A DNA stretch of 64,000 bases from a virus. The stretch covers positions 1 to 64,000 of the IMG/VR virus record IMGVR_UViG_3300009605_000021; one strand, given 5' to 3'. A model generated the notes under the pieces. It was not told the DNA's origin and made no database searches. It saw only the letters and a program-made list of their open reading frames with translations. The translations under genes and the position numbers were made by a program. Each line of letters opens with the position of its first letter. Within the stretch, counting starts at the first letter, position 1. This document shows, piece after piece, positions 398 through 30,628 of this stretch.

Positions 398-3300
398 TTA
401 ATCTTCAAAAGAAGCTCCAGAATCTGTGATAATGAAATCTAGAGCAATGAATTCGATTGAGCGCGCGGGCTTCAAGAAAATCTTAGCATACATGATGTTT
501 CTGTCAATTAAATCTGGAGTTGTGGTTGTTTCATCAAGAATAACCTTATAATCAACCAGGCCCAATTGACTCTTTACGCTACTAAGGAAGCTTTCAGCTC
601 TATTTCTGAACCCAACCCAAGTTGCACGCACGTTCTGTTCGAACAGTGTTGTCGCCGCAATTCTTGAAACTTCTTTCTTCACAAAGATAAGTAAGCGGCG
701 AACATTAATTCTATCGAGAGCAGAAGGAGTGAGTTGAAGTGTCTTCTGACCGAAGATTACAATTCCCTCTGCTGGGAAAGTGGCAATTGGGTTGATATTT
801 GCCTCATAGAGCTTGTCTCTATCTTCAGAGGTAAGTTTGTGAGTAACACCAACAACATTTAAGCCCGAAGCCCCAAATGAAAGTCCGCCACGTGTAAACC
901 CAGCTGGCGCAAACCATGGAGCCTGTTGGGCATCGCTAAATGCCATGGCACCAAGAGCAACAACAGAGGGCGGAACTTTAAGAACCGCTGCAGTTCTCTC
1001 ATCGCGGATCTGAACCCATGGATAATAAGTGCAACCATAACTTGAATTGATTTCTCTGTCTTCAAGCTTCTTCCTGAGAAGATTAATGTCCTGAGAATCA
1101 ATACGTGATCTTTCAGTATCACTGTTTTCAGTATAAGGCTGGTAATTTCCCTCACCGACTGTATTATTCTGTAGATCAATGATAGCTAGAGCGTCTGCTC
1201 TTTCTTCACATTGGTCAACAAGAAGATTTGTAAGATTTGTTTCTGTTACACCCGGAATTGTAGCAATATTGTATTCCAACAAATCGGCATCTTTAATTGA
1301 TTGAATAGCTTGTTTGACAGTGTTATAAGCATAGTTCACTGTCGCATTTCCACTTGCATCGTCTAACAGAGAATTTCGAAGTGGTTCTTTTTCTGTAATA
1401 TCGAACCCATCAAAACCTCCATGGAGAAGGGTTGTAAACCTGTTCCATTTCTTTTCGTTAACCAATTTCTTGGCACCAGTATTTCCAGTCCCAGTGTCAG
1501 AACCACTAGTAGCGGTGTAACTCGAGCCATCTTTGCGGCTGCCAGAAGCATAACGCACATGTGGGTTGACTTCGACAAGATCATCAAGTGAGAAAACCCA
1601 TGAAATCTCTGTGTAGGTCCCACCGGTGTCTCTTCCTGAATCGATTCCGCCTGGCATAGCTCGGATCAGATCGCGAACACTTTCGTCAAAAATGTTTGAA
1701 GCCGATCTTTCAGTGCGAACACCCCAAAATGCTTTCTTGGGATTGTCAATATCTCCTTCGTTAGAATTATCTCTTAGAGGCAACTCTGGGAAGTAGAATG
1801 AAGACGACATCTGCGAACCTATATGAGTGTTTGCATCGGTTTTATCAAGCTGTTTGGTATAAACACTAGATTTGACACCAGAAGAGCCGGATGCATTAAG
1901 AGAAGATGAAAACAGGCAATTATATCCCGATGTGGAACCTTTTGCATATGGAATTCCAACTGCTTGATCACCAACAATCATATGGTACCCGGTCAGACCA
2001 CCTTGGGTCTCTGCGCCGGCAGCAGTCGCGTCGTATGTTCCGAGGCCATTTTCGTTGCCTCCGGTAACATTTAATGCGTTAAGGAAACGATAAGGACCAT
2101 ACACACCGAATGGAAGTAAGCCTTCGCCCGCTCCATTATCAACATCTTCGTTCATGGCTACGCGGAGGAATTTAGACTGGTTTGGGTATTCGCCATATTC
2201 TCGATATCTTTCTTCGACAGTATTCCATTCAAGATATTTGTCACCAATTCTTCTTTTAATGTAGTTTGCTGAATGTGGGTTAAGATTTAATCCCTTGAAC
2301 ACTTCTACATATTGAGGTTTGCTGTCTCTATCGCTAATAAACCTGATTGCAACTGTAAATGTGCCGTATCTGTTATATTTGTCATTTGGGAATTTCAGAT
2401 CTTCAATTGAAATTTTGAGATTGTTTTGTAGCCATTCTCCCTGATTCAAAGAAATGAGACGAAACAGCTTTTGCACAGATTCGTTGTCGTAGTTGGTGCT
2501 ATTGCCCGTATCTTGAGAAATATACCAACCTGTCTGTGCATTTGCTCTTCCAAATCTCCAATCTGCGCCATCTTGCACAAAATTTCTAGATTTCAGAGGC
2601 AACATCAAACCGTGAGTTACGCTGCCCCATCCACCAACTTTGTCGTCAAGGAAGCCTTCGTATGATTCACCAAGAAAGTACCCTTTTTGGTTATCTGTAG
2701 TAGTAATAACTGTATTTGTTAGTGTAGGATTGGTATTGAAAACTTTTCTAACAAAATCATCCGAACTGCGATTAAACGTGAAGTCAACTTTTTCTACACC
2801 AGTGTGGAGGCCAGTAAGAGTAGTTGTATCTGCCTGATTTGAAGAGGACAAGATTTGCCCGGGAGTACCAATCAACATTGACAAGGTTCCAGGTGACGAA
2901 GCAGCTGATCCCGTTCCAATTGTCACTGCATGTGAAGCAGTATATTGTGACACAGAACCATTTGATTTATCGAAGTCAAAGGCGCCAGACAGAACCATTG
3001 TGGTGTTCTGGTCGCAATAGAAAATAGCAGCCAAAGAACCTGCAGCAGGGTTGGCGTCAGTATTCGTCCCGGGCGAAACGGCTCCCATTATAAAGTCGGT
3101 ATCAATCGCCATGGAGCCGTTGGTGTTAGCAAGAATAAGACCATCGGTGTCGTCCGCAGCCAAGACAAGATTAGATGTCGCTTTAAGAGTGACAGTAGTG
3201 GTAGTTGTACCATCTTCCGCGCTGACGCCGACAACGCCGGTGGTCGCGAGGGTGGAAATACCGGAATGATATTTAGCAACAGTGGTAGTAGCTGTGCCAT

Positions 3301-4030
3301 TGATCGCATCTTTTATATAACCTCGCGTAGCTGCCGTATCCCCTGCTAAGCCTAGCACCCAAATTTCATTGGCTGCCATTCCGCCGGCCAGTAGGGTGCT
3401 GGAGGGTTTCATTACAAATTTGTATGTAGTGCCGGTGCCTCCAACAGTTGTCGGTACATTGATTGTAAATGCTTTGTCGTCGCCGACGACACTCGCTTGT
3501 ATAGCATCAATTACAGTCGCTGTAGTTAAGCCCTGATTTTCAATTTGGTCAGAACCATTGAACAGCCAAAGACCATAAGCTCCGCCGGCGCTTTCAACAT
3601 CTTCGTTTGGAGTCGTTCGCGCATTTTGGCTTAACAACACCTTCGCAATGCCAGCGGATGTGCCGTCGCCTCCGCCCCAACCAGCTTTTCCAGCTGTCGT
3701 GGCTAGTGTGTGTTGCTCACCAAGAAGTCTAATGAATGTGAGAGGAGCATTGTTACTTAACCAAGCTTTAGCAGCATAAGAGCCGTAAGTTGGTGCTAGC
3801 TTGTTGCCATCTCTAAAAACATCACCAGTTTGAACACCAGGAATGGGTTCACCAAAAATCTCAACAAACTCGGCATAAGATCGAACTTTGATTGGAGTTC
3901 CTGCGGGCCCTTTTACAGAGCGCCCAATGACCAGTGGTCCAATAACTTCTGGTGCTGCTTCAAGAATCGACTTATCAATCTCATTCATGAAGATTCCCGG
4001 TGATACAAATTTAAACTTCTTTACAGACAT
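398..4030 (-). CDS. Tail sheath protein, T4 gp18-like, enlarged
   Basis: Contractile sheath subunit. The N-terminus (SPGIFMNEIDKS, then GPLVIGRSVKGPAGTP) and the C-terminal third (ALGAMAFSDAQQAPWFAPAG, INPIATFPAEGIVIFGQKT, DRINVRRLLIFVKKEVSR, ATWVGFRNRAESFLS) are diagnostic for the gp18 family. At 1210 residues it is nearly twice T4 gp18 (659). The extra length lies mainly between residues about 120 and 480 and is rich in Gly, Ser and Thr. Part of it (about residues 180-340, DNA 3000-3480) resembles the Ig-like domain that recurs in other virion proteins here and is visibly GC-richer than its flanks. Such insertions probably decorate the outer surface of the sheath. The ATG at 4030 has AAAGGAGA at proper spacing. 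It is followed by the tube gene and preceded by connector genes. Confidence 0.93.
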   Translation of the reverse strand: MSVKKFKFVSPGIFMNEIDKSILEAAPEVIGPLVIGRSVKGPAGTPIKVRSYAEFVEIFGEPIPGVQTGDVFRDGNKLAPTYGSYAAKAWLSNNAPLTFIRLLGEQHTLATTAGKAGWGGGDGTSAGIAKVLLSQNARTTPNEDVESAGGAYGLWLFNGSDQIENQGLTTATVIDAIQASVVGDDKAFTINVPTTVGGTGTTYKFVMKPSSTLLAGGMAANEIWVLGLAGDTAATRGYIKDAINGTATTTVAKYHSGISTLATTGVVGVSAEDGTTTTTVTLKATSNLVLAADDTDGLILANTNGSMAIDTDFIMGAVSPGTNTDANPAAGSLAAIFYCDQNTTMVLSGAFDFDKSNGSVSQYTASHAVTIGTGSAASSPGTLSMLIGTPGQILSSSNQADTTTLTGLHTGVEKVDFTFNRSSDDFVRKVFNTNPTLTNTVITTTDNQKGYFLGESYEGFLDDKVGGWGSVTHGLMLPLKSRNFVQDGADWRFGRANAQTGWYISQDTGNSTNYDNESVQKLFRLISLNQGEWLQNNLKISIEDLKFPNDKYNRYGTFTVAIRFISDRDSKPQYVEVFKGLNLNPHSANYIKRRIGDKYLEWNTVEERYREYGEYPNQSKFLRVAMNEDVDNGAGEGLLPFGVYGPYRFLNALNVTGGNENGLGTYDATAAGAETQGGLTGYHMIVGDQAVGIPYAKGSTSGYNCLFSSSLNASGSSGVKSSVYTKQLDKTDANTHIGSQMSSSFYFPELPLRDNSNEGDIDNPKKAFWGVRTERSASNIFDESVRDLIRAMPGGIDSGRDTGGTYTEISWVFSLDDLVEVNPHVRYASGSRKDGSSYTATSGSDTGTGNTGAKKLVNEKKWNRFTTLLHGGFDGFDITEKEPLRNSLLDDASGNATVNYAYNTVKQAIQSIKDADLLEYNIATIPGVTETNLTNLLVDQCEERADALAIIDLQNNTVGEGNYQPYTENSDTERSRIDSQDINLLRKKLEDREINSSYGCTYYPWVQIRDERTAAVLKVPPSVVALGAMAFSDAQQAPWFAPAGFTRGGLSFGASGLNVVGVTHKLTSEDRDKLYEANINPIATFPAEGIVIFGQKTLQLTPSALDRINVRRLLIFVKKEVSRIAATTLFEQNVRATWVGFRNRAESFLSSVKSQLGLVDYKVILDETTTTPDLIDRNIMYAKIFLKPARSIEFIALDFIITDSGASFED

Positions 4031-4066
4031 ACTTTAAAGTCTCCTTTATGATAGTATTTTCTTTAA

Positions 4067-4074
4067 TAAATAGT
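4067..4074. promoter_or_regulatory. Intergenic ACTATTTA box before sheath gene
   Basis: ACTATTTA on the coding strand, 36 nt upstream of the sheath ATG, within the 68-nt gap between the connector gene and the sheath. One of six copies of this 8-mer in gaps. Its complement TAAATAGT overlaps the T4 late promoter core (TATAAATA), but on the strand facing away from the gene. Confidence 0.4.
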
Positions 4075-4098
4075 AATTTACTTTCTCAAACTCCAATA

Positions 4099-4962
4099 TT
4101 AACTTCTATAAAATGAATCATCATCGTGCTCTGGTTCATCTTTATTGATTACTCTTTCTCTAGGTATTTTTACAACGACAGCATTTTCACGAACTACAAG
4201 TTTTGGTTGATCTTGATTATCACCTGAACCAATCAAATAACCTAGAACTTCTATGTTAACAGTTGTTTGATAAGTTTTTTCGTCTTCTCCTAGAGTCGAC
4301 ATATTATTAGTTTGTGCGAAAGCTGGCTGAACAAACGCTTCATATAAGTGTTTGTCTTTTTTAATTACAAAATGATTAATATTTCCAGGCCTCACAACGA
4401 ATGGAGTCAACAGATCATTCATTTGTTGTTGATACTCAGTCTTGAGAGTAATTGCATAGTTTATCAGCAGTGGTACAGGCATTGGAATAGTAACTGTCTG
4501 ATAAACAATTTTATCGTTTTTAAATGGATAATTTAATTGGCCAAACAAGCGATAAGTGTCCGCTCTTTTGAAGTTGCTTGTCTTATCTTGTTTAATCTTT
4601 CTCGCAACTATAATTGAACCACCTTTTTCGTCGTTGACTGGAGGAACATTTCCATAAAAAACACCTTTTTTTATAGGATTTTTTTCTATTGAGATTCTCT
4701 CGATTGTCATTATCGGAAGAATTAATGATCCATTCTTGTCTCGCAAGTTTTGATCGTTTTTGATCTGAAAAGACCTTTCTGCAGTCATCCACAAAGTTGG
4801 CACCTTCTTGAATCCTTTGTTTGTGGTCGCATGTATATTAAAAACTTTATCAATATGTTCAAAAAAAGCTTCGTCAATCTTTTCTAAAGTTGAAGGCACA
4901 ATAAGTTCTTCATGAACAACTCTTGGATCTGGAACACCTGTATTTTTATGTTTAGGTGGCAT
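4099..4962 (-). CDS. Tail completion / sheath terminator candidate (gp15-like)
   Basis: Candidate for the tail terminator that caps tube and sheath and joins the tail to the neck. I place the start at the ATG at 4962 (MPPKHKNTGVPDPRVVHEEL, 287 residues); a longer frame to 5046 exists but would overlap the upstream gene by 95 nt. The chosen start overlaps that gene by 11 nt. The segment PMPVPLLINYAITLKTEYQQ followed by QMNDLLTPFV resembles the gp15 pattern in which a pairing region and a long helix precede a hydrophobic strand. The call also rests on position (capsid, two connector-like genes, this gene, sheath, tube), which mirrors T4 13-14-15-18-19. The exact T4 counterpart is uncertain. Confidence 0.5.
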   Translation of the reverse strand: MPPKHKNTGVPDPRVVHEELIVPSTLEKIDEAFFEHIDKVFNIHATTNKGFKKVPTLWMTAERSFQIKNDQNLRDKNGSLILPIMTIERISIEKNPIKKGVFYGNVPPVNDEKGGSIIVARKIKQDKTSNFKRADTYRLFGQLNYPFKNDKIVYQTVTIPMPVPLLINYAITLKTEYQQQMNDLLTPFVVRPGNINHFVIKKDKHLYEAFVQPAFAQTNNMSTLGEDEKTYQTTVNIEVLGYLIGSGDNQDQPKLVVRENAVVVKIPRERVINKDEPEHDDDSFYRS

Positions 4963-5437
4963 CAAACAAACCCTCGCGAGCACGAATACATCTTGCAGAT
5001 ATCTCAAAACGATGATCAATCTGACCAAAGAACTGTTTCGGTTCATCTAAAGAAACAATCTCATAATGAACATCGCCGTACAGAGCAAAATCCCCAACTC
5101 GAACAATAAGATCTTGATCTTCTGTTAATCTTCTTTTATGGAAATGAAGAAGTAGTGATGAGCTTTTATCGATACCAACATTATTCATAAATTCTGTCTT
5201 TAGCCCTTCCCACTCAACTAAAACATAAACACGAATTGGGGGCAAAAATGTTTTATTAATGGCTTCTCCATAAACTGAATGAAAATCTGTATGTTCCAAA
5301 CTGATGGGGTAATATAATATTTGCTGGCCAATGACACGTTCGATTAATTCATCATTAACCTGTTTTATCAGGTCCCTCTCCTTTTTTCCAACAAAAAGAG
5401 GCGGCGGTGGCTGTGTTGGTTGTTCCCATTTAGACAT
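4952..5437 (-). CDS. Neck / head-completion candidate
   Basis: 161-residue protein, probably part of the neck between portal and tail. It starts MSKWEQPTQPPPPLFVGKKE with a proline-rich leader and has a compact alpha/beta body ending in VGDFALYGDVHYEIVSLDEP and FEISARCIRAREGLFDA. The pattern of a G-D-x-x-x-Y-x-x-x-x-Y-E-I strand followed by a short strand pair is seen in small head-tail connectors of marine T4-like phages. It is smaller than T4 gp14 (256 residues). It sits between a 436-residue putative neck gene and a putative tail completion gene. Assignment is by position and general fold; a direct match to gp13 or gp14 cannot be claimed from sequence alone. Confidence 0.45.
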   Translation of the reverse strand: MSKWEQPTQPPPPLFVGKKERDLIKQVNDELIERVIGQQILYYPISLEHTDFHSVYGEAINKTFLPPIRVYVLVEWEGLKTEFMNNVGIDKSSSLLLHFHKRRLTEDQDLIVRVGDFALYGDVHYEIVSLDEPKQFFGQIDHRFEISARCIRAREGLFDAT

Positions 5438-5446
5438 CTTTCTATA

Positions 5447-6757
5447 TTACCCCGTAAACACTGGAAGAGGAATTCTCTCTTGAAGTCTACTAACTGATTC
5501 TGCGACAGTTGCATCTCTTTCAGCCAAATTGGCATATGTCAATTCATCAAGAACGGTTTTAAGTTCATCTCTTAATGTGGCTTGCTCTGCTGTTGCTTGA
5601 GTGATCAAACTATCACCATTTAATGTTACAGATTCTCCTGGAACGGGTATTGTGCTAAATTTGCTTCTAACTAAACCTAATGTTTCTTTTGTTAACGCTA
5701 GTGAAAACCTTCGTATCCATTGTTTTCCGATAGAATTAATATTTCTATAAGGAATGTTAGCAAATGGCAGAGTATTCATGTTGTTCACACCAGAAGTTCC
5801 ACTTAATTTGTCATCATCCTCTACCCATGGATCTTCTTTTACAGTAAACTTGATCCACATTTTTTCAGGAGCAGAAGTTGTTGTTAATGGGAAGAGCCGC
5901 AACCTGTTATCTTTTATTTCAAAAGAGTAATGAGAGTTTCTCGTATAAATTGCGTCTTCAAACATCATTGCTTGTTGTTTGTTCTGCCAAACCGGAATGA
6001 TTTGGAATTGTGAATCGTCAGCCCATTGACCATAATTCTGAAGGTTACCGACAGTGTTGAGTCCTCCATAATATCCATAGAATCTCCACATCGCAGCAGG
6101 AGTTTTATAATAGACTTGTTTAACAATGATTCTTTTTTTGCCCACTTTATTATAAAATGAAGAATTGTCATTGCTGGAATCTATAGAGGCAGAATAGATG
6201 ATGGCTTGAAGATCATAATCTTGTGAATTTGTAGATGTACTAAAAGATGATGAATATTCTGTTTCGTCTCCTCCAACCCCAATACTCGCTCCGATGCCTA
6301 AAGTTACTTTTCTTGAATATTCAAATCTGTATTTAGGAAATTTTAAAGCAAGTTCTTCTGAGTCCTCGCCATATAGCGAAGATGGTAGTTCATCGGAGTC
6401 AACAAGACTGCCATCGTGATCGAAAGTTCCAGTTGCGCTTCCAAGAAGGCTTCCAAGAACATTCTTTGCTTGATGTATATTGACAATATATGAGTACTCT
6501 AAAACTGCTTCTTCATAAGCGGCAAACACATTTTCTTTTGTTAACTCTATATCTAATATGTCTCCACCAAGCTTTTTATAGGTATAAGCAACTTGATCGA
6601 CGGCGCCAGTTATAAAATTGTCAGAGTATAGTGGAGATGCTTCATTGCTATATATGTTAAACGGCAACGTTGTTGTCGTAATATCATTTAAGCTCGCTGT
6701 TTGTGGTAAAACAATTGCGCTTACAGTACTTGAAGGCGAAAGAGTAGGATAGGCCAT
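5447..6757 (-). CDS. Neck / head-tail connector candidate
   Basis: 436-residue protein, first gene after the capsid terminator. It has a helical N-terminal segment (DQVAYTYKKLGGDILDIELT, then ENVFAAYEEAVLEYSYIVNI), typical of connector proteins that dock on the portal, then a Ser-rich loop and a beta-rich region (MWIKFTVKEDPW) and a helical C-terminus (FSLALTKETLGLVRSKF; EQATLRDELKTVLDELTYAN). The family recurs in marine T4-like phages downstream of gp23. T4 gp13 occupies a similar place but is shorter (309 residues), so the equivalence is an inference from order. The ATG at 6757 has AGGAGT about 11 nt upstream. Confidence 0.5.
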   Translation of the reverse strand: MAYPTLSPSSTVSAIVLPQTASLNDITTTTLPFNIYSNEASPLYSDNFITGAVDQVAYTYKKLGGDILDIELTKENVFAAYEEAVLEYSYIVNIHQAKNVLGSLLGSATGTFDHDGSLVDSDELPSSLYGEDSEELALKFPKYRFEYSRKVTLGIGASIGVGGDETEYSSSFSTSTNSQDYDLQAIIYSASIDSSNDNSSFYNKVGKKRIIVKQVYYKTPAAMWRFYGYYGGLNTVGNLQNYGQWADDSQFQIIPVWQNKQQAMMFEDAIYTRNSHYSFEIKDNRLRLFPLTTTSAPEKMWIKFTVKEDPWVEDDDKLSGTSGVNNMNTLPFANIPYRNINSIGKQWIRRFSLALTKETLGLVRSKFSTIPVPGESVTLNGDSLITQATAEQATLRDELKTVLDELTYANLAERDATVAESVSRLQERIPLPVFTG

Positions 6758-6793
6758 TCATAGAGACTCCTATAGCTACCTTAATTAGTTTTG

Positions 6794-6838
6794 GAAAAAA
6801 GAAAACCCCAGTCTAACCTAAGTCAAACTGGGGTTTTC
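6794..6838 (-). terminator. Intrinsic terminator after major capsid gene
   Basis: A perfect 12-bp inverted repeat (GAAAACCCCAGT at 6801-6812 with ACTGGGGTTTTC at 6827-6838) encloses a 14-nt loop. On the minus strand the stem is followed by TTTTTT. It lies 22 nt after the stop of the capsid gene and before the neck genes, so it should end or attenuate capsid transcripts. It is the only strong hairpin with a U-tract that I found. Confidence 0.9.
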
Positions 6839-6859
6839 GATAAAAAGGTTAATTAAGTA

Positions 6860-8740
6860 TTAACCGCGAAGATCTTGAACTACAACAAGACCGTACATAT
6901 CAGGACGTACCATCTTTTTAGCGTAGCGAGTCATGACACCCTTACGGGGCACGAAGTCCTCTACACCAAAGATAGTAGGCGTGACCTGGAGAGGTACATA
7001 CGGAGCATATACATATCCGCTCTCGAGGAACGAACCACCTTTACGACCAATAAGAACAACGTTCCTGAGGAAGTAAGGATCTACATATATATCCCATTTC
7101 TTGCTAAGACTACCTGTCTTAATAGTACCAACTGTGCCTCTGTCAGTATCACCTGTTACGTCAGCACGGAAACCAGAGGTAAACTCTAGAATATTGGCGA
7201 CTTCAGGTCCTACTACAATGAAGTTAGCTCCGCCTCGAAGCGTCTTACGATGAATCTGAGCGGATACGTCATTGATGGTTTCGACAAGAGTCTCATACCA
7301 TTCAGACACGGTACCAGTAAAGTCAGCACCAAGAAGTGACTCATTATTGAGGTTACTAATCGGTTGACCATTGGTACGATCAAGGAACTTACCAGGTCGG
7401 CGAGACCAATGATAAGTGCTAGCAGTGGAACCCTTAACGAGATCTTCGAGGATCTCGCGGTCAATCTCAAGAGCAATTTGCTCAGAGAGAATGCCAGTAA
7501 GTTCTACTTCAGCATCAAGATTGTGGTAAGCATTGAGATCTTGACCAAGCTCTGGGGTCCATTTGGCCTTGAGCTTTTTGGTGATAGCCGTGACAGACAC
7601 GCTGTCTACCTTGATATCAATCTCAGGGATACCTTCATCTTTTTCCAGTCCCCATGGTTCGAGACCAACAACAGCACCAACTGCATTGGTTGAACCAGCA
7701 GCAACAGAAGTACTATTGAAAGCGTCTGCAAGCGCATATTCGTATTGCAGACTCAAGGGGTTGTCAGCGGCGCTAGCCAGTCCCATACCATACTGATGCA
7801 AACCAGTCTCATTGGTAGTATCAGTGGCGAAGAACAAGAGAATGTGATCTTTCTTGGAACCACTGAACTGAGTCAAACGACGAACCACCTTCATTGAGCC
7901 TGACATTCCATAATCTGTACCTTCTTTCGCAACAATGCTTTGCAAATTGGCCTCATTGAGATTCGGGAAAGTATCGGAGTTATTAGGAACTCTAATGACA
8001 CACACGTTGGTTGTTCCCGACGTGAAATCAGGGTCGAAACGACAAAGCGCATCGAACTCAGCTTGAGAGTTAACACCATCTGGCACATCATCAGAACCAG
8101 GTAGCTTGCCACCAAATGTACCGGAAGCAACAACGCCGGCGTTGGTAGCGTGATGTCCGCCGGCGACGTTGGCCCAAGTTTCAAAAGCGTGGCCGGATGT
8201 TCCGGCGGCGATGCCTCCGCTAGAACCAGTCGGTGAAGAATAGCCCTGATTAAGATTGTAAGGTCCTAAGCTGACATTCTCGTCACCAAGGTTAACACCA
8301 CCGGTGATTTCCACACCGACGACGCCGCCGCCATAAAGCGAATTCGCAGTACCGGGAGTACCTTGAATACCATCTAGGTCAGCATTCAAACCTAAGCGGT
8401 TTGAGGTATGCTGGAAGTCCAGGAAGAAGATGAGACCCGAAGGGAGACTCATCGGTTGCACTGACACAAGGTCATTTGCAATGAGTGAACCGAATACTCG
8501 GCGCACGATTGGGAATGCAACAGCAGCAAAGCCTTCTACATCACCAGTATGCATAGCGGAAGCTTCACGAAGAAGTTCCCTAGCTTGGTTTTCTAGAAGA
8601 CGAGACATGCTCTGTCGCGTAGCATCGTTAGTGAGACCTTCAAGAAGTCCAGTGTTTTCCCACTTTTCAAGTAGTGCAGCACCTTCCCTCTGGAGGTCAC
8701 GATTAACAATGCCTTCAGTTAATTTATCTAATACAGACAT
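6860..8740 (-). CDS. Major capsid protein, T4 gp23-like
   Basis: Main shell protein with the HK97-type fold. The N-terminal region (TRQSMSRLLENQARELLREA, then AFPIVRRVFGSLIANDLVSV and QPMSLPSGLIFFLDFQ) and the C-terminal part (AKWTPELGQDLNAYHNLDAE, YVYAPYVPLQVTPTIF, RKGVMTRYAKKMVRPDMYG) are standard gp23-family blocks. Residues 57-60 read L-R-E-A, a match to the (L/I)-x-E|A site cut by T4-type prohead proteases and close to the T4 cut after residue 65, so a propeptide of about 59 residues is predicted. At 626 residues it exceeds T4 gp23 (521); a Gly-rich insert at about residues 120-235, encoded by GC-richer DNA (about 8100-8360), explains this. ATCCTCCTTA (minus TAAGGAGGAT) gives a strong ribosome site. 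A terminator follows. Confidence 0.95.
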   Translation of the reverse strand: MSVLDKLTEGIVNRDLQREGAALLEKWENTGLLEGLTNDATRQSMSRLLENQARELLREASAMHTGDVEGFAAVAFPIVRRVFGSLIANDLVSVQPMSLPSGLIFFLDFQHTSNRLGLNADLDGIQGTPGTANSLYGGGVVGVEITGGVNLGDENVSLGPYNLNQGYSSPTGSSGGIAAGTSGHAFETWANVAGGHHATNAGVVASGTFGGKLPGSDDVPDGVNSQAEFDALCRFDPDFTSGTTNVCVIRVPNNSDTFPNLNEANLQSIVAKEGTDYGMSGSMKVVRRLTQFSGSKKDHILLFFATDTTNETGLHQYGMGLASAADNPLSLQYEYALADAFNSTSVAAGSTNAVGAVVGLEPWGLEKDEGIPEIDIKVDSVSVTAITKKLKAKWTPELGQDLNAYHNLDAEVELTGILSEQIALEIDREILEDLVKGSTASTYHWSRRPGKFLDRTNGQPISNLNNESLLGADFTGTVSEWYETLVETINDVSAQIHRKTLRGGANFIVVGPEVANILEFTSGFRADVTGDTDRGTVGTIKTGSLSKKWDIYVDPYFLRNVVLIGRKGGSFLESGYVYAPYVPLQVTPTIFGVEDFVPRKGVMTRYAKKMVRPDMYGLVVVQDLRG

Positions 8741-8760
8741 TTTTAAATCCTCCTTATAAA

Positions 8761-9738
8761 TTATTTAATACCTGCTAAAGTCTTCCACCTATCATTAAGT
8801 GGAGCACTTTTCCTTCCCTCTTTTCTGCGAGGAATGGTTGTTGAAGAGTTTCGTTTGACTGCTTCGCTCAGTGATTGCGGATTACGCTTGCGCGAACTTC
8901 CCACTGCGCTTTGAAGAGTTTCATAAATAACTTTACTCTCCTCAACAGAACCGGCTTTAGATAGAGCTTCGACAACTTTAATTTTTTGTCGCTCATTCAG
9001 GGAGGTGCTACCCAACACGCGATTCGTGTACAAAAGCTTGGCATTTGAAAGATTCACTTCTTCGAGTCTTTCTTTCACCTGCACAAGCAAGTTCTTATAT
9101 TTTTTGTTTTGCTCAAAAAGAGTCTTTTTATCTTTTTGGAGCTTTTTAATTGATTCTTTCAATTTTTTGTTTTCTTTCTTTGTCTCTTCGTCTTCGTCTT
9201 CATCGCCCTGTGCTTCTTGAGCAAGAGCAATGTCTTCGTTTTCTTCATCAAGAGTTGCGTTTGAAGCGCCGCCGGCTTGACCAGTTGGTACGTTTTTGGG
9301 GAGACCAGTAATTTTTTCAATGATGGAAGCTAGTTGTTCTTCTGTAAGCTCAACTGCTTCTTCGTCGTTGTCTTCTTCTTCAGTCTCAGCATCGTCCTCT
9401 TCCAATACGTCTTCATCGAGTTCTCTTGTCAATTCTTCAGCCAACTTATCCAAGTCGATATCGACCTCTTGGTCTTCCTCGAGGGCTTCTTCTTGATAGT
9501 GAGCATGTGGAACACTATCAAACTGATCTTCTGTTTCTTCTAGAGGCTCTTCACCAGGCATTGGCATTGGCATAGGCGGAGGCATCATGGGCGCCTCCTG
9601 CTCTAAAAGAGAATTAACAGCCTTTTCAACTTCAGTAGAATATCTTTCGAGAATAGTAGATTCTGCGCTTTTTAAAGCTGCTTCTTTCAAGGTTTCTGCA
9701 TCAACAATTGCTTGTTCTAACATGCTAGTATTCGACAT
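8761..9738 (-). CDS. Prohead core scaffolding protein, T4 gp22-like
   Basis: Internal scaffold around which the prohead shell assembles, later degraded by the prohead protease. The 325-residue sequence has a helical N-terminus, a Met/Pro patch (MMPPPMPMPMPGEEP, about residues 50-64), a very acidic middle (about 65-180), then a long coiled coil (KKENKKLKESIKKLQKDKKT and following) and a basic C-terminus. The C-terminal part, with LGSTSLNERQKIKVVEALSK, fits gp22 proteins of marine T4-like phages. It sits immediately upstream of the capsid gene, as in T4. The gap upstream (9739-9848) is the longest in the head region and is likely regulatory. Confidence 0.85.
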   Translation of the reverse strand: MSNTSMLEQAIVDAETLKEAALKSAESTILERYSTEVEKAVNSLLEQEAPMMPPPMPMPMPGEEPLEETEDQFDSVPHAHYQEEALEEDQEVDIDLDKLAEELTRELDEDVLEEDDAETEEEDNDEEAVELTEEQLASIIEKITGLPKNVPTGQAGGASNATLDEENEDIALAQEAQGDEDEDEETKKENKKLKESIKKLQKDKKTLFEQNKKYKNLLVQVKERLEEVNLSNAKLLYTNRVLGSTSLNERQKIKVVEALSKAGSVEESKVIYETLQSAVGSSRKRNPQSLSEAVKRNSSTTIPRRKEGRKSAPLNDRWKTLAGIK

Positions 9739-9848
9739 ATTTTGTCTCCTGATACGTATCTAAGATAAATAGTAGCATAAACGTTAAAATGCCATATTAT
9801 AATACGGTTCTACTGGTTTTCGAGTTTCGCTTCTAATTCCTCAATAAT
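9739..9848. promoter_or_regulatory. Candidate control region for scaffold-capsid operon
   Basis: 110-nt gap with three elements. An ACTATTTA box (coding strand) at 9766-9773 lies 27 nt before the scaffold ATG. A near-palindrome CCATATTATAATACGG at 9792-9807 contains TATAAT on both strands and could be a -10 element, but I see no good -35 at 17 nt on the coding strand. AGGAGAC (9744-9750) is the ribosome site of the scaffold gene. The first 36 nt after the upstream stop stay open in frame as 12 codons. Together with the terminator at 6794-6838 this frames scaffold and capsid genes as one unit. Confidence 0.4.
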
Positions 9849-10757
9849 TTATAGCGCTATCCAAGTGAGGTTCACAACTGAGTTGTCGGCGAGGTGCGAG
9901 CCGGTAGAATTATAAATGTTGATGACGAAGGAGCCTTCGACAATGGCCCAAGTGGAGAAAGAGGCGAGGGCGACGAGTGTGTCGTTGGCGGTGTCCATTA
10001 TCTGAAGCAGTACGACGTCACCATCTTTAATTTTATTGCTCACAATCTTGAGGCTCGCACTGGTGCTGGTGTCTAGTTGCGCGCCAAGAGTAATCGTAAG
10101 AAACCCACTCCTTGTGTTAGAGGTAAGTGAGCACAAGCCCCCGCAATTATTACTAGCTCCCAGATCGACAGGGGTAGAGATGATGCCGCCTTCAGACCAA
10201 GCGGTATGGCCACGCGTGTCTACACCAATGTTAAAGTTCGCACCACTAACTCCAGCCACGGTGTGGGTGATCCAATCCCATTGATCAGTTTGAAAACTAT
10301 TCGGCCCGTCAACCTCAACCATGCCTTTGACACCCATAATTGAAATTCTGTCGCCGTTGCTAAGGCCATGGCCAGCGGCTGTTATTACGCCTGGGTTAGC
10401 AACTGTTATTCCAGTAATGAGGGTGGGGGCTTTCGGCGTGTGTCCGCCGATAGCAAGGGTGGTCACTCCACCCAGCGACACGCCAGTGGACGTGGTTTCA
10501 ATCGCGGCGTCTAAGGATCCGTCTTTAAGGGTGAGAACGTTGGCGGATCCATAATCACGAATAACAAAATCATCCCCGGCGGCGTGTGAGTTTTTCACTT
10601 GCCAATATGTCTGATTGTCCTTCTGCAGCTGGAATCCTGAATCGAAGCCGGCGGCGGAGTTGATTTCGAGGAATGTGTGTGCACTACCGCTGACGATCAA
10701 CGAAGGTAAATTAGTATTACTTGGGTTCGGGCCACTGCCTCCTCCTGGTCCTGACAT
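9849..10757 (-). CDS. Putative head decoration / fibre protein
   Basis: 302 residues, starting MSGPGGGSGPNPSNTNLPSL, with AAGGAGATT before the ATG. The N-terminal third resembles trimeric fibre shafts (SAHTFLEINSAAGFDSGFQL). Residues about 118-145 (ITGITVANPGVITAAGHGLS, NGDRISIMGVKGMVEVDG) match the small FCCH-type beta domain common in phage tail and head fibres. The C-terminus is a beta-rich lobe ending in VNLTWIAL. The DNA is GC-richer than neighbouring genes, suggesting fairly recent acquisition. Its place between core genes and scaffold suggests a head-attached decoration rather than a tail part. It stops at TAA but the frame then remains open for 12 more codons (IIEELEAKLENQ). Confidence 0.5.
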   Translation of the reverse strand: MSGPGGGSGPNPSNTNLPSLIVSGSAHTFLEINSAAGFDSGFQLQKDNQTYWQVKNSHAAGDDFVIRDYGSANVLTLKDGSLDAAIETTSTGVSLGGVTTLAIGGHTPKAPTLITGITVANPGVITAAGHGLSNGDRISIMGVKGMVEVDGPNSFQTDQWDWITHTVAGVSGANFNIGVDTRGHTAWSEGGIISTPVDLGASNNCGGLCSLTSNTRSGFLTITLGAQLDTSTSASLKIVSNKIKDGDVVLLQIMDTANDTLVALASFSTWAIVEGSFVINIYNSTGSHLADNSVVNLTWIAL

Positions 10758-10770
10758 TTAATTAATCTCC

Positions 10771-11259
10771 TTATTGATTCGATTCATTCCAGTTTGGATC
10801 CTGTGGTCCCAATGTAATTCCTGAACCGGTGAGTATGTACATTTCTTCAGTAGAAATCGATGTCAATTCTGCATAGACTTCGTAGGACCCCTCAGTAGCT
10901 CCATCAGCATTATAAATATATATTTCTTTACATTTGCAACGAAATGTAAAAGAGTCGCGATCTTCAGTAAGAGTCACATAATGTAGACCATCGAAAGTGC
11001 CGCCATCTTTGCAACTACCTGGCGGTGCAGCATCTCCAAAGTACACCCTTAAAGTCGTCCCTGCTTTATTCCAAACCACAACCTCTCTCGCAACTCTGGG
11101 AAATTCGATTTTGTGTTGTGTCGTAATTGGGATACTAGCAGCACCAGTTAAATATGGGGTACCAGCAACCAAATATGATGCAGCATTCCCTAATCCAGCT
11201 CTTGGATACGAGTGCGTCCAACCTCGGTCATGTGGTGGATCTGGTGGCAAATTCGGCAT
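10771..11259 (-). CDS. Conserved virion-type protein, unknown function
   Basis: 162 residues, beginning MPNLPPDPPHDRGWTHSYPR. The body looks like a beta-sandwich (KIEFPRVAREVVVWNKAGTT, LRVYFGD, YVTLTEDRDSFTFRCKCKEI, YIYNADGATEGSYEVYAELT). No signal peptide or membrane segment. The gene is paired with the putative decoration protein downstream (13-nt gap) and follows bS21. The family is familiar from marine phage head clusters but I know no assigned role. A capsid decoration or head-fibre base is the most reasonable guess from position. AGGAGAAG precedes the ATG. Confidence 0.5.
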   Translation of the reverse strand: MPNLPPDPPHDRGWTHSYPRAGLGNAASYLVAGTPYLTGAASIPITTQHKIEFPRVAREVVVWNKAGTTLRVYFGDAAPPGSCKDGGTFDGLHYVTLTEDRDSFTFRCKCKEIYIYNADGATEGSYEVYAELTSISTEEMYILTGSGITLGPQDPNWNESNQ

Positions 11260-28517: not shown

Positions 28518-28772
28518 TTAATAACCGCTCTTCCATGCGTCTGGATTTTCTCGGGTTTGGCGCCATTCGTTAATCATGTTTTTAAAGACATCTATGATAT
28601 TATTTTCAAGGTCTTCTCTTTGTTCTGGTGACGCTTCTTCATATAATGCACGCAATGGTTGAAACGCTGCAGAGATTTGAGGACCACGTTCAAGAAGAAG
28701 TTCATTATCGCTACTAGTACGTGCAAGTTCTTCTTGAATAATTTGTTTAAGTCTTTCAGTCGAGATCTTCAT
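28518..28772 (-). CDS. Tagged small protein (84 aa), putative head cargo
   Basis: 84 residues starting MKISTERLKQIIQEELARTS, a variant of the recurrent targeting-like module (x-L-K-Q-I-I-x-E-E-L). The rest is an acidic helical domain (PQISAAFQPLRALYEEASPE; NNIIDVFKNMINEWRQTREN) ending AWKSGY. No enzymatic motif. It overlaps the upstream gene by 17 nt and forms a four-gene set with 28756-29690. No L/I-x-E|A/G site directly follows the module (I-Q-E is followed by E), so cleavage is less clear here than in the others. Confidence 0.55.
   Translation of the reverse strand: MKISTERLKQIIQEELARTSSDNELLLERGPQISAAFQPLRALYEEASPEQREDLENNIIDVFKNMINEWRQTRENPDAWKSGY
28713..28772 (-). repeat. Targeting-like module in 84-aa protein
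   Basis: Encodes MKISTERLKQIIQEELARTS at the N-terminus. Part of its DNA (CTTAAACAAATTATTCAAGA on the coding strand) matches other copies closely. Confidence 0.65.
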
Positions 28773-28950
28773 TTTCTATTTCTTTTATTTGTTGTTGAAT
28801 GTAAGAGGCAGCTTTAAAAAAGATGCTCTTTGCTAAACTATAATCGCCATTTGTATTTTTTAGAGTTGAAGCAACAACCTCTTTTGCGAAATGTTCGACA
28901 ATAGCTTTTTTATCGCCTTCACTCAAATTATCTGTTGTGTTTAATTTCAT
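28756..28950 (-). CDS. Small helical protein (64 aa), unknown
   Basis: 64 residues from the ATG at 28950, which overlaps the stop of the Cys-rich gene (ATGA); a longer frame to 29049 would cover that gene and is rejected. It starts MKLNTTDNLSEGDKKAIVEH and has helices FAKEVVASTLKNTNGDYSLA and SIFFKAASYIQQQIKEIENE. The N-terminal MKL resembles the tagged proteins, but the module itself is absent. Function unknown. Confidence 0.55.
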   Translation of the reverse strand: MKLNTTDNLSEGDKKAIVEHFAKEVVASTLKNTNGDYSLAKSIFFKAASYIQQQIKEIENEDLD

Positions 28951-29096
28951 TTCTCTTTCCTCGGGCGGCCTCTTCGGCGTACTAATTTTATAGTATTGCA
29001 TTTGCCAACACAGTTCTTGCAAGAACAACAGCCGCAACAACAACAGCAATGACTTGAATTAAAAAGATTTGCTAATCTATGTAAAAGATTTTTCAT
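28947..29096 (-). CDS. Cys-rich mini-protein with C-terminal AT-hook
   Basis: 49 residues, read directly from the sequence: ATG at 29096 with GGGAGG eleven nt upstream, stop TGA overlapping the next ATG. The N-terminus MKNLLHRLANLFNSS could form an amphipathic helix. Then HCCCCCGCCSCKNCVGKC packs ten cysteines into residues 17-33, as in a metallothionein or metal-cluster site. The C-terminus RRRGRPRKEK is a textbook AT-hook (R-G-R-P core flanked by basic residues), which binds the minor groove of AT-rich DNA. I know no named family with this pair of features. It lies in the four-gene set between primase and Mre11-Rad50. The run of TGT/TGC codons could also be prone to slippage. Confidence 0.7.
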   Translation of the reverse strand: MKNLLHRLANLFNSSHCCCCCGCCSCKNCVGKCNTIKLVRRRGRPRKEK

Positions 29097-29099
29097 AGT

Positions 29100-29690
29100 T
29101 TATGTTGCCTCCCGATTCGTGTAAGTTGGCTCAACATCTTCTATTTCAATTCCGCGAGATTGTTCAAGAACTTGTACCACAAGTTCTTCTGTGTTCTCGC
29201 CCAAATCATATAACTCATCAACAGCTTGTTTTTCTTCGTCCGTTAATGTTACTTCTTGCCATTCACCATTTGCAAACACATTCCAACGACGTGGATGAAG
29301 TCCTAATCCGCCTTCAGACAATTTTTTAAGCTCTTCCTTAATAATTTGTTTCAATCGCGACTTTGTTAATTTTAATTTGCCTTCGGGCATAAAACCTGGA
29401 TCGAGTTCATCTTCTTCCGAACTTACAGGCATGCCTCCAGCATTAGTGTCAATAGAAATTCTGGCTTTACCTGGTATTACTTCTGGTGTCATTTCTTTTG
29501 AAATTTCCCTTGTACTGAGGTGGTCAAGTAACTCCGCAAATGAATCTTGAAATTCAGCGCGGACTCGACGGGTTTCCCCATATAAATTATTTATATCTAG
29601 TCTGTTTTGCGCAATTAACTGTGAATCAGTCATATTCTCGGAAAACGCTTCTTGAATAATTTGCCTTAGTTGCGTTTTAGTTAGTTTCAC
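29100..29690 (-). CDS. Double-tagged protein (196 aa), putative head cargo
   Basis: 196 residues from a GTG at 29690 that overlaps the primase stop (GTGA). Module copy one is KLTKTQLRQIIQEAF at the N-terminus; copy two is LKLTKSRLKQIIKEEL then KKLSEGG at residues 106-128. Both contain sites of T4 prohead-protease type: I-Q-E|A after copy one and L-S-E|G after copy two. Between them is an acidic helical region (EFQDSFAELLDHLSTREISK) and a loop; after copy two a short domain (WNVFANGEWQEVTLTDEEKQ, AVDELYDLGENTEELVVQVL). An internal ATG at 29390 just before copy two could allow a shorter product. No enzymatic motif. It sits among DNA-replication genes, far from the head cluster. Confidence 0.6.
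   Translation of the reverse strand: MKLTKTQLRQIIQEAFSENMTDSQLIAQNRLDINNLYGETRRVRAEFQDSFAELLDHLSTREISKEMTPEVIPGKARISIDTNAGGMPVSSEEDELDPGFMPEGKLKLTKSRLKQIIKEELKKLSEGGLGLHPRRWNVFANGEWQEVTLTDEEKQAVDELYDLGENTEELVVQVLEQSRGIEIEDVEPTYTNREAT
29307..29375 (-). repeat. Targeting-like module, second copy in 196-aa protein
   Basis: Encodes LKLTKSRLKQIIKEEL then KKLSEGG. L-S-E|G fits the specificity of T4-type prohead proteases. Confidence 0.7.
29646..29690 (-). repeat. Targeting-like module, N-terminal copy in 196-aa protein
   Basis: GTG start followed by KLTKTQLRQIIQEA. I-Q-E|A fits prohead protease specificity and recalls the T4 CTS, which also ends in E-A. Confidence 0.7.
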
Positions 29691-30628
29691 TTTATCTCTC
29701 CTAAAACTTTGTATAATAAGTAGTCACTAGAGCCACATAGTACCGCTTCCTTTTTTCGCTTTAGAAATTCTTCTTTTGTCATCGAGCCAATATCATCGTA
29801 ACCTGCTGTGTTAATTTTATATACTTCATTTCCATAGTTCAATAAATCTTTTATTATTCTTTTTGATTTATTCTCGGCATCACTGTCTAACCCAATATAA
29901 ATTGGTGTATCATTTTTTATAATTGTTTGAAATAAATTTGAATTCTCGCGCAAAGTAGAACCAAGAATTGGAATAGCGTTTGGGCCAGCAATTATTGCAT
30001 CAAAAATTCCTTCAACAATTATCAAGTCCTGATCAAAATCCAAATAGAGTTCATTGAATATTATATCTTTTGAAACCGGAGGGTTTAAATATTTCTTCCA
30101 ACTTCCATTGAATGTTCTCGCAACAAAATAATTTACATAACCTTCTTTGTCAAAGGATGGAATAATAATTCTGTTATTATATTCGCCTCGCATACAACAT
30201 CCAACTTTCCAACGAATTATATCTTTCTTTGTTATCCCTCTATTCTCCAAATAATTTAGAGCGGGCATCATCGCTAAAGAAAGATTTTCATTAGCAAGAG
30301 ACACAAATTCTTTTGGCAAATCAAATCTTTGTAATGGTATAATTTCAATTTCTTCTGAAAATAAATCATCAAATTTTGTTATATCTTCTCGGCCATTTAG
30401 TTTGTCCCACTTTTGGAGCGCTCGGAAGTCTCCATACTTTCTTACAAGGCGGCGAATAGAACGACCATATTGGTCACAAATCCAACATTTAAAAGCGTCT
30501 TTCTCTAAATTGATAGAAAGTTTACGCTTATGGTGTTTACATGTTGGACAATAAAAAAGATGCTCATCATTTGAATTATGATAACCACCAAATATCTTTT
30601 TTAGGAGTTGGAGTTTTTCTCCTTCCAT
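29687..30628 (-). CDS. DNA primase, DnaG/gp61-like
   Basis: 313 residues, enzyme that lays RNA primers for lagging-strand synthesis. Zinc-binding domain: FYCPTCKHH and FKCWICDQYG give C27-x-x-C30 and C48-x-x-C51. Catalytic TOPRIM domain: LIIVEGIFDAIIAGPNAIP holds the conserved Glu, and YIGLDSDAENKSKRIIKDL the D-x-D pair. The middle segment YLENRGITKKDIIRWKVGCC and NRIIIPSFDKEGYVNYFVAR is the usual core of DnaG-type primases. Length is close to T4 gp61 (342). It overlaps the RuvC-like gene by 28 nt upstream and the tagged protein downstream by 4 nt. No helicase is in the window. Confidence 0.88.
   Translation of the reverse strand: MEGEKLQLLKKIFGGYHNSNDEHLFYCPTCKHHKRKLSINLEKDAFKCWICDQYGRSIRRLVRKYGDFRALQKWDKLNGREDITKFDDLFSEEIEIIPLQRFDLPKEFVSLANENLSLAMMPALNYLENRGITKKDIIRWKVGCCMRGEYNNRIIIPSFDKEGYVNYFVARTFNGSWKKYLNPPVSKDIIFNELYLDFDQDLIIVEGIFDAIIAGPNAIPILGSTLRENSNLFQTIIKNDTPIYIGLDSDAENKSKRIIKDLLNYGNEVYKINTAGYDDIGSMTKEEFLKRKKEAVLCGSSDYLLYKVLGEIK

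Follow-up and report, generated by a model that had tools for sequence, protein, structure and literature searches.

The cyanobacterial metallothionein SmtA holds zinc as Zn4Cys9His2 (PMC10119931), and WhiB7 of Mycobacterium combines a four-cysteine Fe-S domain with an RGRP AT-hook (PMC10245118). The gene described here was found in a window of 64,000 nucleotides, the whole stretch of viral DNA that was analysed, and its product, the Cys10 protein, recalls both. SmtA/BmtA and the Cys10 protein are alike in being small and cytoplasmic, with 9 Cys and 2 His in the former and 10 Cys and 1-2 His in the latter. However, SmtA has 56 residues, spaced cysteines and a zinc-finger fold, whereas the Cys10 core has 31-34 residues, five adjacent cysteines and an amphipathic helix, and no sequence match connects the two; the resemblance is a likeness of kind, not of descent. 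WhiB7 is likewise a small protein with a Cys cluster and a C-terminal RGRP hook, but its four cysteines belong to a [4Fe-4S] domain with other spacings, it has a G[I/V]W[G/A]G motif, and most members of the Cys10 family are hookless. Functionally, WhiB7 is the closest analogue of the hook-bearing protein, from which its defining motif is absent. Since WhiB7 joins a cysteine cluster to an RGRP hook (PMC10245118), the statement in the preliminary description of this locus that no described family has both parts was too strong. The AT-hook of HMGA (PMC11354804) shows the same GRP core between basic residues (RRRGRPRK or RRGRPKK in the Cys10 proteins); the Cys10 protein differs in carrying a single hook, on a bacteriophage protein, whose minor-groove binding is predicted from sequence. 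By analogy with the RGRP hooks of WhiB7 (PMC10245118) and HMGA (PMC11354804), the Cys10 hook should place the protein on AT-rich minor grooves.

The locus in the window comprises the following features.

28947..29096, minus strand: coding sequence of the 49-residue ten-cysteine/AT-hook protein (ATG start, 49 codons), member of a family of 75 distinct proteins
29108..29113, minus strand: Shine-Dalgarno sequence GGGAGG, 11 nt 5' of the ATG
29058..29093, minus strand: predicted amphipathic helix, residues 2-13, KNLLHRLANLFN, with conserved His6, Leu8, Asn10 and Phe12 (from the hydrophobic moment and the N-terminal scan)
28998..29051, minus strand: cysteine cluster, residues 16-33, HCCCCCGCCSCKNCVGKC (from the family alignment)
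28956..28979, minus strand: AT-hook RRRGRPRK, residues 40-47, a clade-specific C-terminal addition
28756..28950, minus strand: downstream gene, beginning MKLNTTDNLSEGDKK, whose start overlaps the stop of the Cys gene as ATGA (28947-28950)
29100..29690, minus strand: upstream gene, beginning MKLTKTQLRQIIQEA, with internal repeats KLTKSRLKQIIKEE
29687..30628, minus strand: DNA primase (PHROG 47, E 1.2e-37), the marker of the site and the basis of the relatives' tree

Translation of 28947-29096 on the minus strand yields MKNLLHRLANLFNSSHCCCCCGCCSCKNCVGKCNTIKLVRRRGRPRKEK, with ten cysteines and RRRGRPRK after them; the reading frame, this composition, the ribosome site and the ATGA coupling are as the preliminary description gave them. 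Five Cys codons in succession are found at this one place in the window and in none of 100 dinucleotide-preserving shuffles, and the gene is single copy in the whole 70,975-base uncultured virus record. The downstream gene is kept in close relatives, and no functional family was found for it. The upstream gene is missing from the corresponding site of the relative L001. Many neighbouring genes start with MKITKxQLKxIIKEE (window 28772, 12847 and 12208, minus strand; more than ten in L010, at 3086-10938) and others begin MKxLLTEWRKYLKE; these starts are possibly capsid-targeting or prohead-protease peptides, as in T4 internal proteins.

Six short peptides of the window protein retrieved 7 loci, an alignment search retrieved 16, and the pattern HCCCCC-x-CC-x-C matched 81 stretches, almost all of them genuine members. 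The merged set contains 74 genes coding for 71 distinct proteins, or 75 distinct proteins with four variants added later. The Cys10 family accordingly numbers at least 75 distinct proteins of 31-50 residues, most of them 31-34, in large uncultured phages. Its consensus is MKxxLH[KR]LxNLFNxxHCCCCCGCCxC, followed by xxCxGxC, xxGCC or similar and then a stop, with 10 Cys in about 33 residues of core. A Shine-Dalgarno-like site precedes 69 of the 74 genes. Among bacterial and archaeal genomes the only match fell on a 101 kb contig from a Halobacteriovorax MAG, which IMG/VR lists, at equal length, as a virus contig (L010). Pfam, PHROGs, NCBIfam and the PDB yielded no family matching the protein. 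A tblastn search of GenBank phages and plasmids gave no match, with a low-complexity filter that may mask the Cys run, and a profile search of Microcystis phage Mel-JY01, Flavobacterium phage immuto, an uncultured phage and Rhodothermus phage RM378 found no member.

The HCCCCC-x-CC-x-C scan partly imposes the invariance of HCCCCC, CC and the next Cys, a bias of which the peptide, relatives'-site and N-terminal scans are free. Because this pattern demanded most of the cluster, the N-terminus was scanned alone as a test of circularity. A search of 2.9 million viral contigs with the N-terminus-only pattern ATGAARNNNNTNHTNCAYARRYTNNNNAAYYTNTTYAAY gave 44 matching stretches, and every one was the Cys gene: 40 belong to members already known and have the full cluster, three are cluster-bearing variants (L414, L415 and L417), and the last, L416, is the L010 contig, cut after HCCCCC at the stretch edge, with the cluster complete in L010. 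As 43 of the 44 matches read through to a complete Cys cluster, helix and cluster are one inherited unit and not a product of chance. A spurious ORF or an antisense CAG-type repeat is ruled out, because the N-terminus and the cluster co-occur and third codon positions vary; the remaining CCCCC ORFs of the viral collection are low-complexity, CAG-repeat-like noise. The Cys10 gene is thus a real, conserved and previously unnamed phage protein family. Just upstream of the full gene in L005, at about 4882-4971, lies a second, shorter poly-Cys ORF (MKKILNKKHCCCCCGCCKWPIPLRYFAHLL), probably a decaying duplicate.

Ten cysteines are present in 68 of the 75 distinct proteins and 9-11 in the remainder. 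The spacing of the last three varies, as CxxCxxxC in 36 genes, CxxxCC in 25, CCC in 5 and other arrangements, and variants with a broken run retain nine (L321 with HYCCCCGCC, L414 with HCCCCGTCSCSCC and L417 with HCSCCCETCACESCC). His16 is found in all 75 proteins and His6 in 74. At the Cys codons positions 1 and 2 are invariant and position 3 stands near 1 bit, and His6, Leu8, Asn10 and Phe12 hardly vary although their third positions are free; selection acts on the protein, which is held while synonymous sites vary. Within the clade of the window, L001, L003 and L321 the core gives pN of 0.06-0.28 against pS of 0.53-1.03, values that are indications and not rates, as sites are few and synonymous sites near saturation. 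The N-terminal segment has a mean hydrophobic moment of 0.59, and in 50 of 74 cases the value is higher than in 95% of the shuffles of the same segment. AlphaFold places a helix at residues 2-11 of the window protein at low confidence; with pLDDT 54.6 and pTM 0.27, no fold is supported.

The joining of a ten-cysteine cluster to an AT-hook, on which the preliminary description centred, holds for the window but not as a family trait, as 70 of the 75 distinct proteins are hookless. The five hook-bearing proteins are those of the window, L001, L003 and L321, all of one primase clade, and the distant L192; L001 and L002 are listed together as carriers of the RGRP tail. Each has a GRP core flanked by basic residues, RRRGRPRK in the window, L001, L003 and L192 and RRGRPKK in L321, where the tail is paired with an HYCCCC cluster. 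The best Pfam AT_hook match has an E value of 0.18, the motif being too short for significance. Hookless members end at the last Cys or a few codons later: L131 and L152 terminate at CNTL, exactly where L003 goes on as CNTLKVVRRRGRPRKKK, and no hook remnant was found in their DNA past that stop. Among the window, L001, L003 and L321, pN of the hook is 0-0.13 against pS of 0.45-1.24, which, read as indications and not rates, places the hook of these four members under purifying selection. The preliminary description had named frameshifts, stops or loss of the Cys and RGRP positions among relatives as signs against the gene; the frame shows no frameshifts or stops, and the positions are kept in L001, L003 and L321, with one Cys replaced in L321.

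In the primase tree the four primase-linked hook genes fall inside one supported set of seven rows (97/96). This set also holds L320, whose Cys gene is cut by the contig end, and L317 and L324, in which the gene is absent between intact flanks and absent anywhere in their records too. L214, just outside the set, has the core without a hook. The simplest reading would be one hook gain and one gene loss within the set, whose inner forks are not all well supported. The L192 stretch has no primase, and its hook is probably a separate gain. The hook thus appears as a late addition, a clade trait that lies outside the family core. With a hook in one clade and one other phage only, coating or silencing of AT-rich host DNA or protection of phage DNA, which the preliminary description had considered, cannot be the function of the family.

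Prohead protease, gp32 and baseplate-like genes are among the neighbours of the Cys gene in its carriers, which are large phages whose portal protein is 33-38% identical to those of Microcystis phage Mel-JY01, Flavobacterium phage immuto and an uncultured phage. The Cys gene occupies many different genome positions, and the genes downstream differ from phage to phage. IscU, IscA, cysteine synthase, an RseP-like protease and tmRNA occur as neighbours in some lineages; such associations are bound to lineage, and no proof of function is drawn from them. Phage-borne genes for Fe-S assembly (IscU, in which three Cys are conserved, an IscA-type carrier, Nfu-like) lie near the Cys gene in L150 (5595-5993), L167 (10163-10858), L184 (5212-6797, with cysteine synthase also nearby) and L010 (1782-2406). 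IscU was found in 7 of 36 long carrier contigs, in five of these within about 2.2 kb of the Cys gene, a proximity that probably reflects shared descent. Among 80 IscU loci sampled from other viral contigs, none had the Cys gene within about 6 kb. IscU/IscA are near the gene in one phage group, and membership in an Fe-S operon was rejected.

A full tmRNA is present in 27 of 40 records searched, namely 26 of 36 carriers and L317, which has no Cys gene. The tmRNA (ssrA) lies a few bases 3' of the Cys gene on the same strand in L005 (5118-5469), L024 (6108-6419), L184 (4125-4429), L189 (302-611) and L174 (5885-6194), and tag peptides such as ANDNVANYALAA were read in carrier phages. In about ten carriers the distance downstream is 0-1.8 kb on the same strand; in most the tmRNA is distant, so a partnership with the Cys gene was dropped and the tmRNA seems to characterise the phage group. 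Tubulin/FtsZ-like genes adjoin or lie near the Cys gene in two contexts (L192 6183-7034 and L021 4534-5643); Pfam Tubulin was matched at 1.8e-7 by one representative of the neighbours, but L192's own protein gave no match at E 0.01.

Metal or thiol chemistry, which the preliminary description had suspected, is the likeliest role of the Cys10 protein. Its anatomy suggests, with about an even chance of being right, a metallothionein-like metal-thiolate miniprotein that is tethered to AT-rich DNA in the window's clade. In the reducing cytoplasm the ten thiolates and His16, perhaps with His6, would bind a metal-thiolate cluster, most likely of Zn(II) or Cu(I) and less likely of the Fe-S type, which could buffer or deliver metal or thiols during infection. 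The N-terminal helix would dock the protein on the membrane or on a protein partner, and the C-terminal AT-hook added in the window's clade would most likely bring the cluster to AT-rich minor grooves. The Cys count is kept while the spacing is loose, which seems more in keeping with a metal-thiolate cluster than with a fixed disulphide fold, and the protein shares with bacterial metallothioneins small size, richness in Cys and a conserved Cys number. On the other hand, homology to a described metallothionein family was not found in Pfam to E 10, NCBIfam or the PDB chains. Five adjacent cysteines are sterically odd for known clusters, and this, together with the lack of a metallothionein or PDB match, the lack of a supported fold and the presence of metal or sulphur neighbours in a minority only, counts against the metal-thiolate reading. 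That the H-C5-G-C2 core defines a new type of metal-thiolate family, converted in one clade by the AT-hook into a DNA-bound metal/redox switch and small convergent counterpart of WhiB7, is decidedly unlikely.

An unlikely but credible alternative is a host-takeover peptide, in which the helix would recognise RNA polymerase, a thiol enzyme or a zinc protein of the host, and the cysteines would inactivate this target by removing its metal or by forming mixed disulphides with it. The gene is small, single copy, on the same strand as its neighbours, dispensable as judged from L317 and L324, and variously placed, as expected of an accessory host-interaction gene, and polar residues conserved on the helix (His6, Asn10 and Asn13) point to a specific partner. 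However, an inhibitor of a host protein would not usually keep so invariant a cluster across divergent phages, whose hosts probably differ. The amphipathic segment, with its hydrophobic moment of 0.59, would also suit a thiol peptide on the inner membrane whose cysteines serve as a scaffold or take part in redox-timed lysis. An RseP-like M50 site-2 protease lies just upstream of the Cys gene in L147 (2107-2907), with relatives in L171, L177 and L207, and in all four the Cys gene follows directly or one gene later. Yet this link is restricted to one lineage, no transmembrane segment is present and the hook-bearing members point to DNA instead, so that such a membrane role is improbable.

There is an equally slim chance of a WhiB7-like transcription regulator, whose cluster would sense metal or redox state and whose hook would grip AT-rich DNA near promoters. 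The order of a Cys cluster and then a C-terminal RGRP is that of WhiB7 (PMC10245118), and the hook is under selection, but the proposal fits only 5 of the 75 proteins, the Cys pattern differs, the G[I/V]W[G/A]G motif is absent from all family sequences and Pfam gave no match to the Wbl family. A cysteine-responsive leader peptide, with ribosome stalling on the Cys codons controlling downstream genes, is highly improbable: the ORF is short with a run of Cys codons, and poly-Cys attenuators exist in mycobacteria, but codon-level comparison shows residues 1-13 to be conserved as protein, the downstream genes vary between phages and are generally not cysteine genes, and a selected C-terminal tail can be present.

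The Cys10 gene is compact and widely kept in phages, with about one Cys per three residues, and is unannotated in the libraries searched. No phage-encoded metallothionein-like protein of this type appeared in the literature searched. Chemical synthesis of its 31-34-residue core is feasible, which opens the metal question to a direct test. The gain of the hook in one primase clade, alongside hookless and gene-less relatives, is a natural experiment on protein retargeting.
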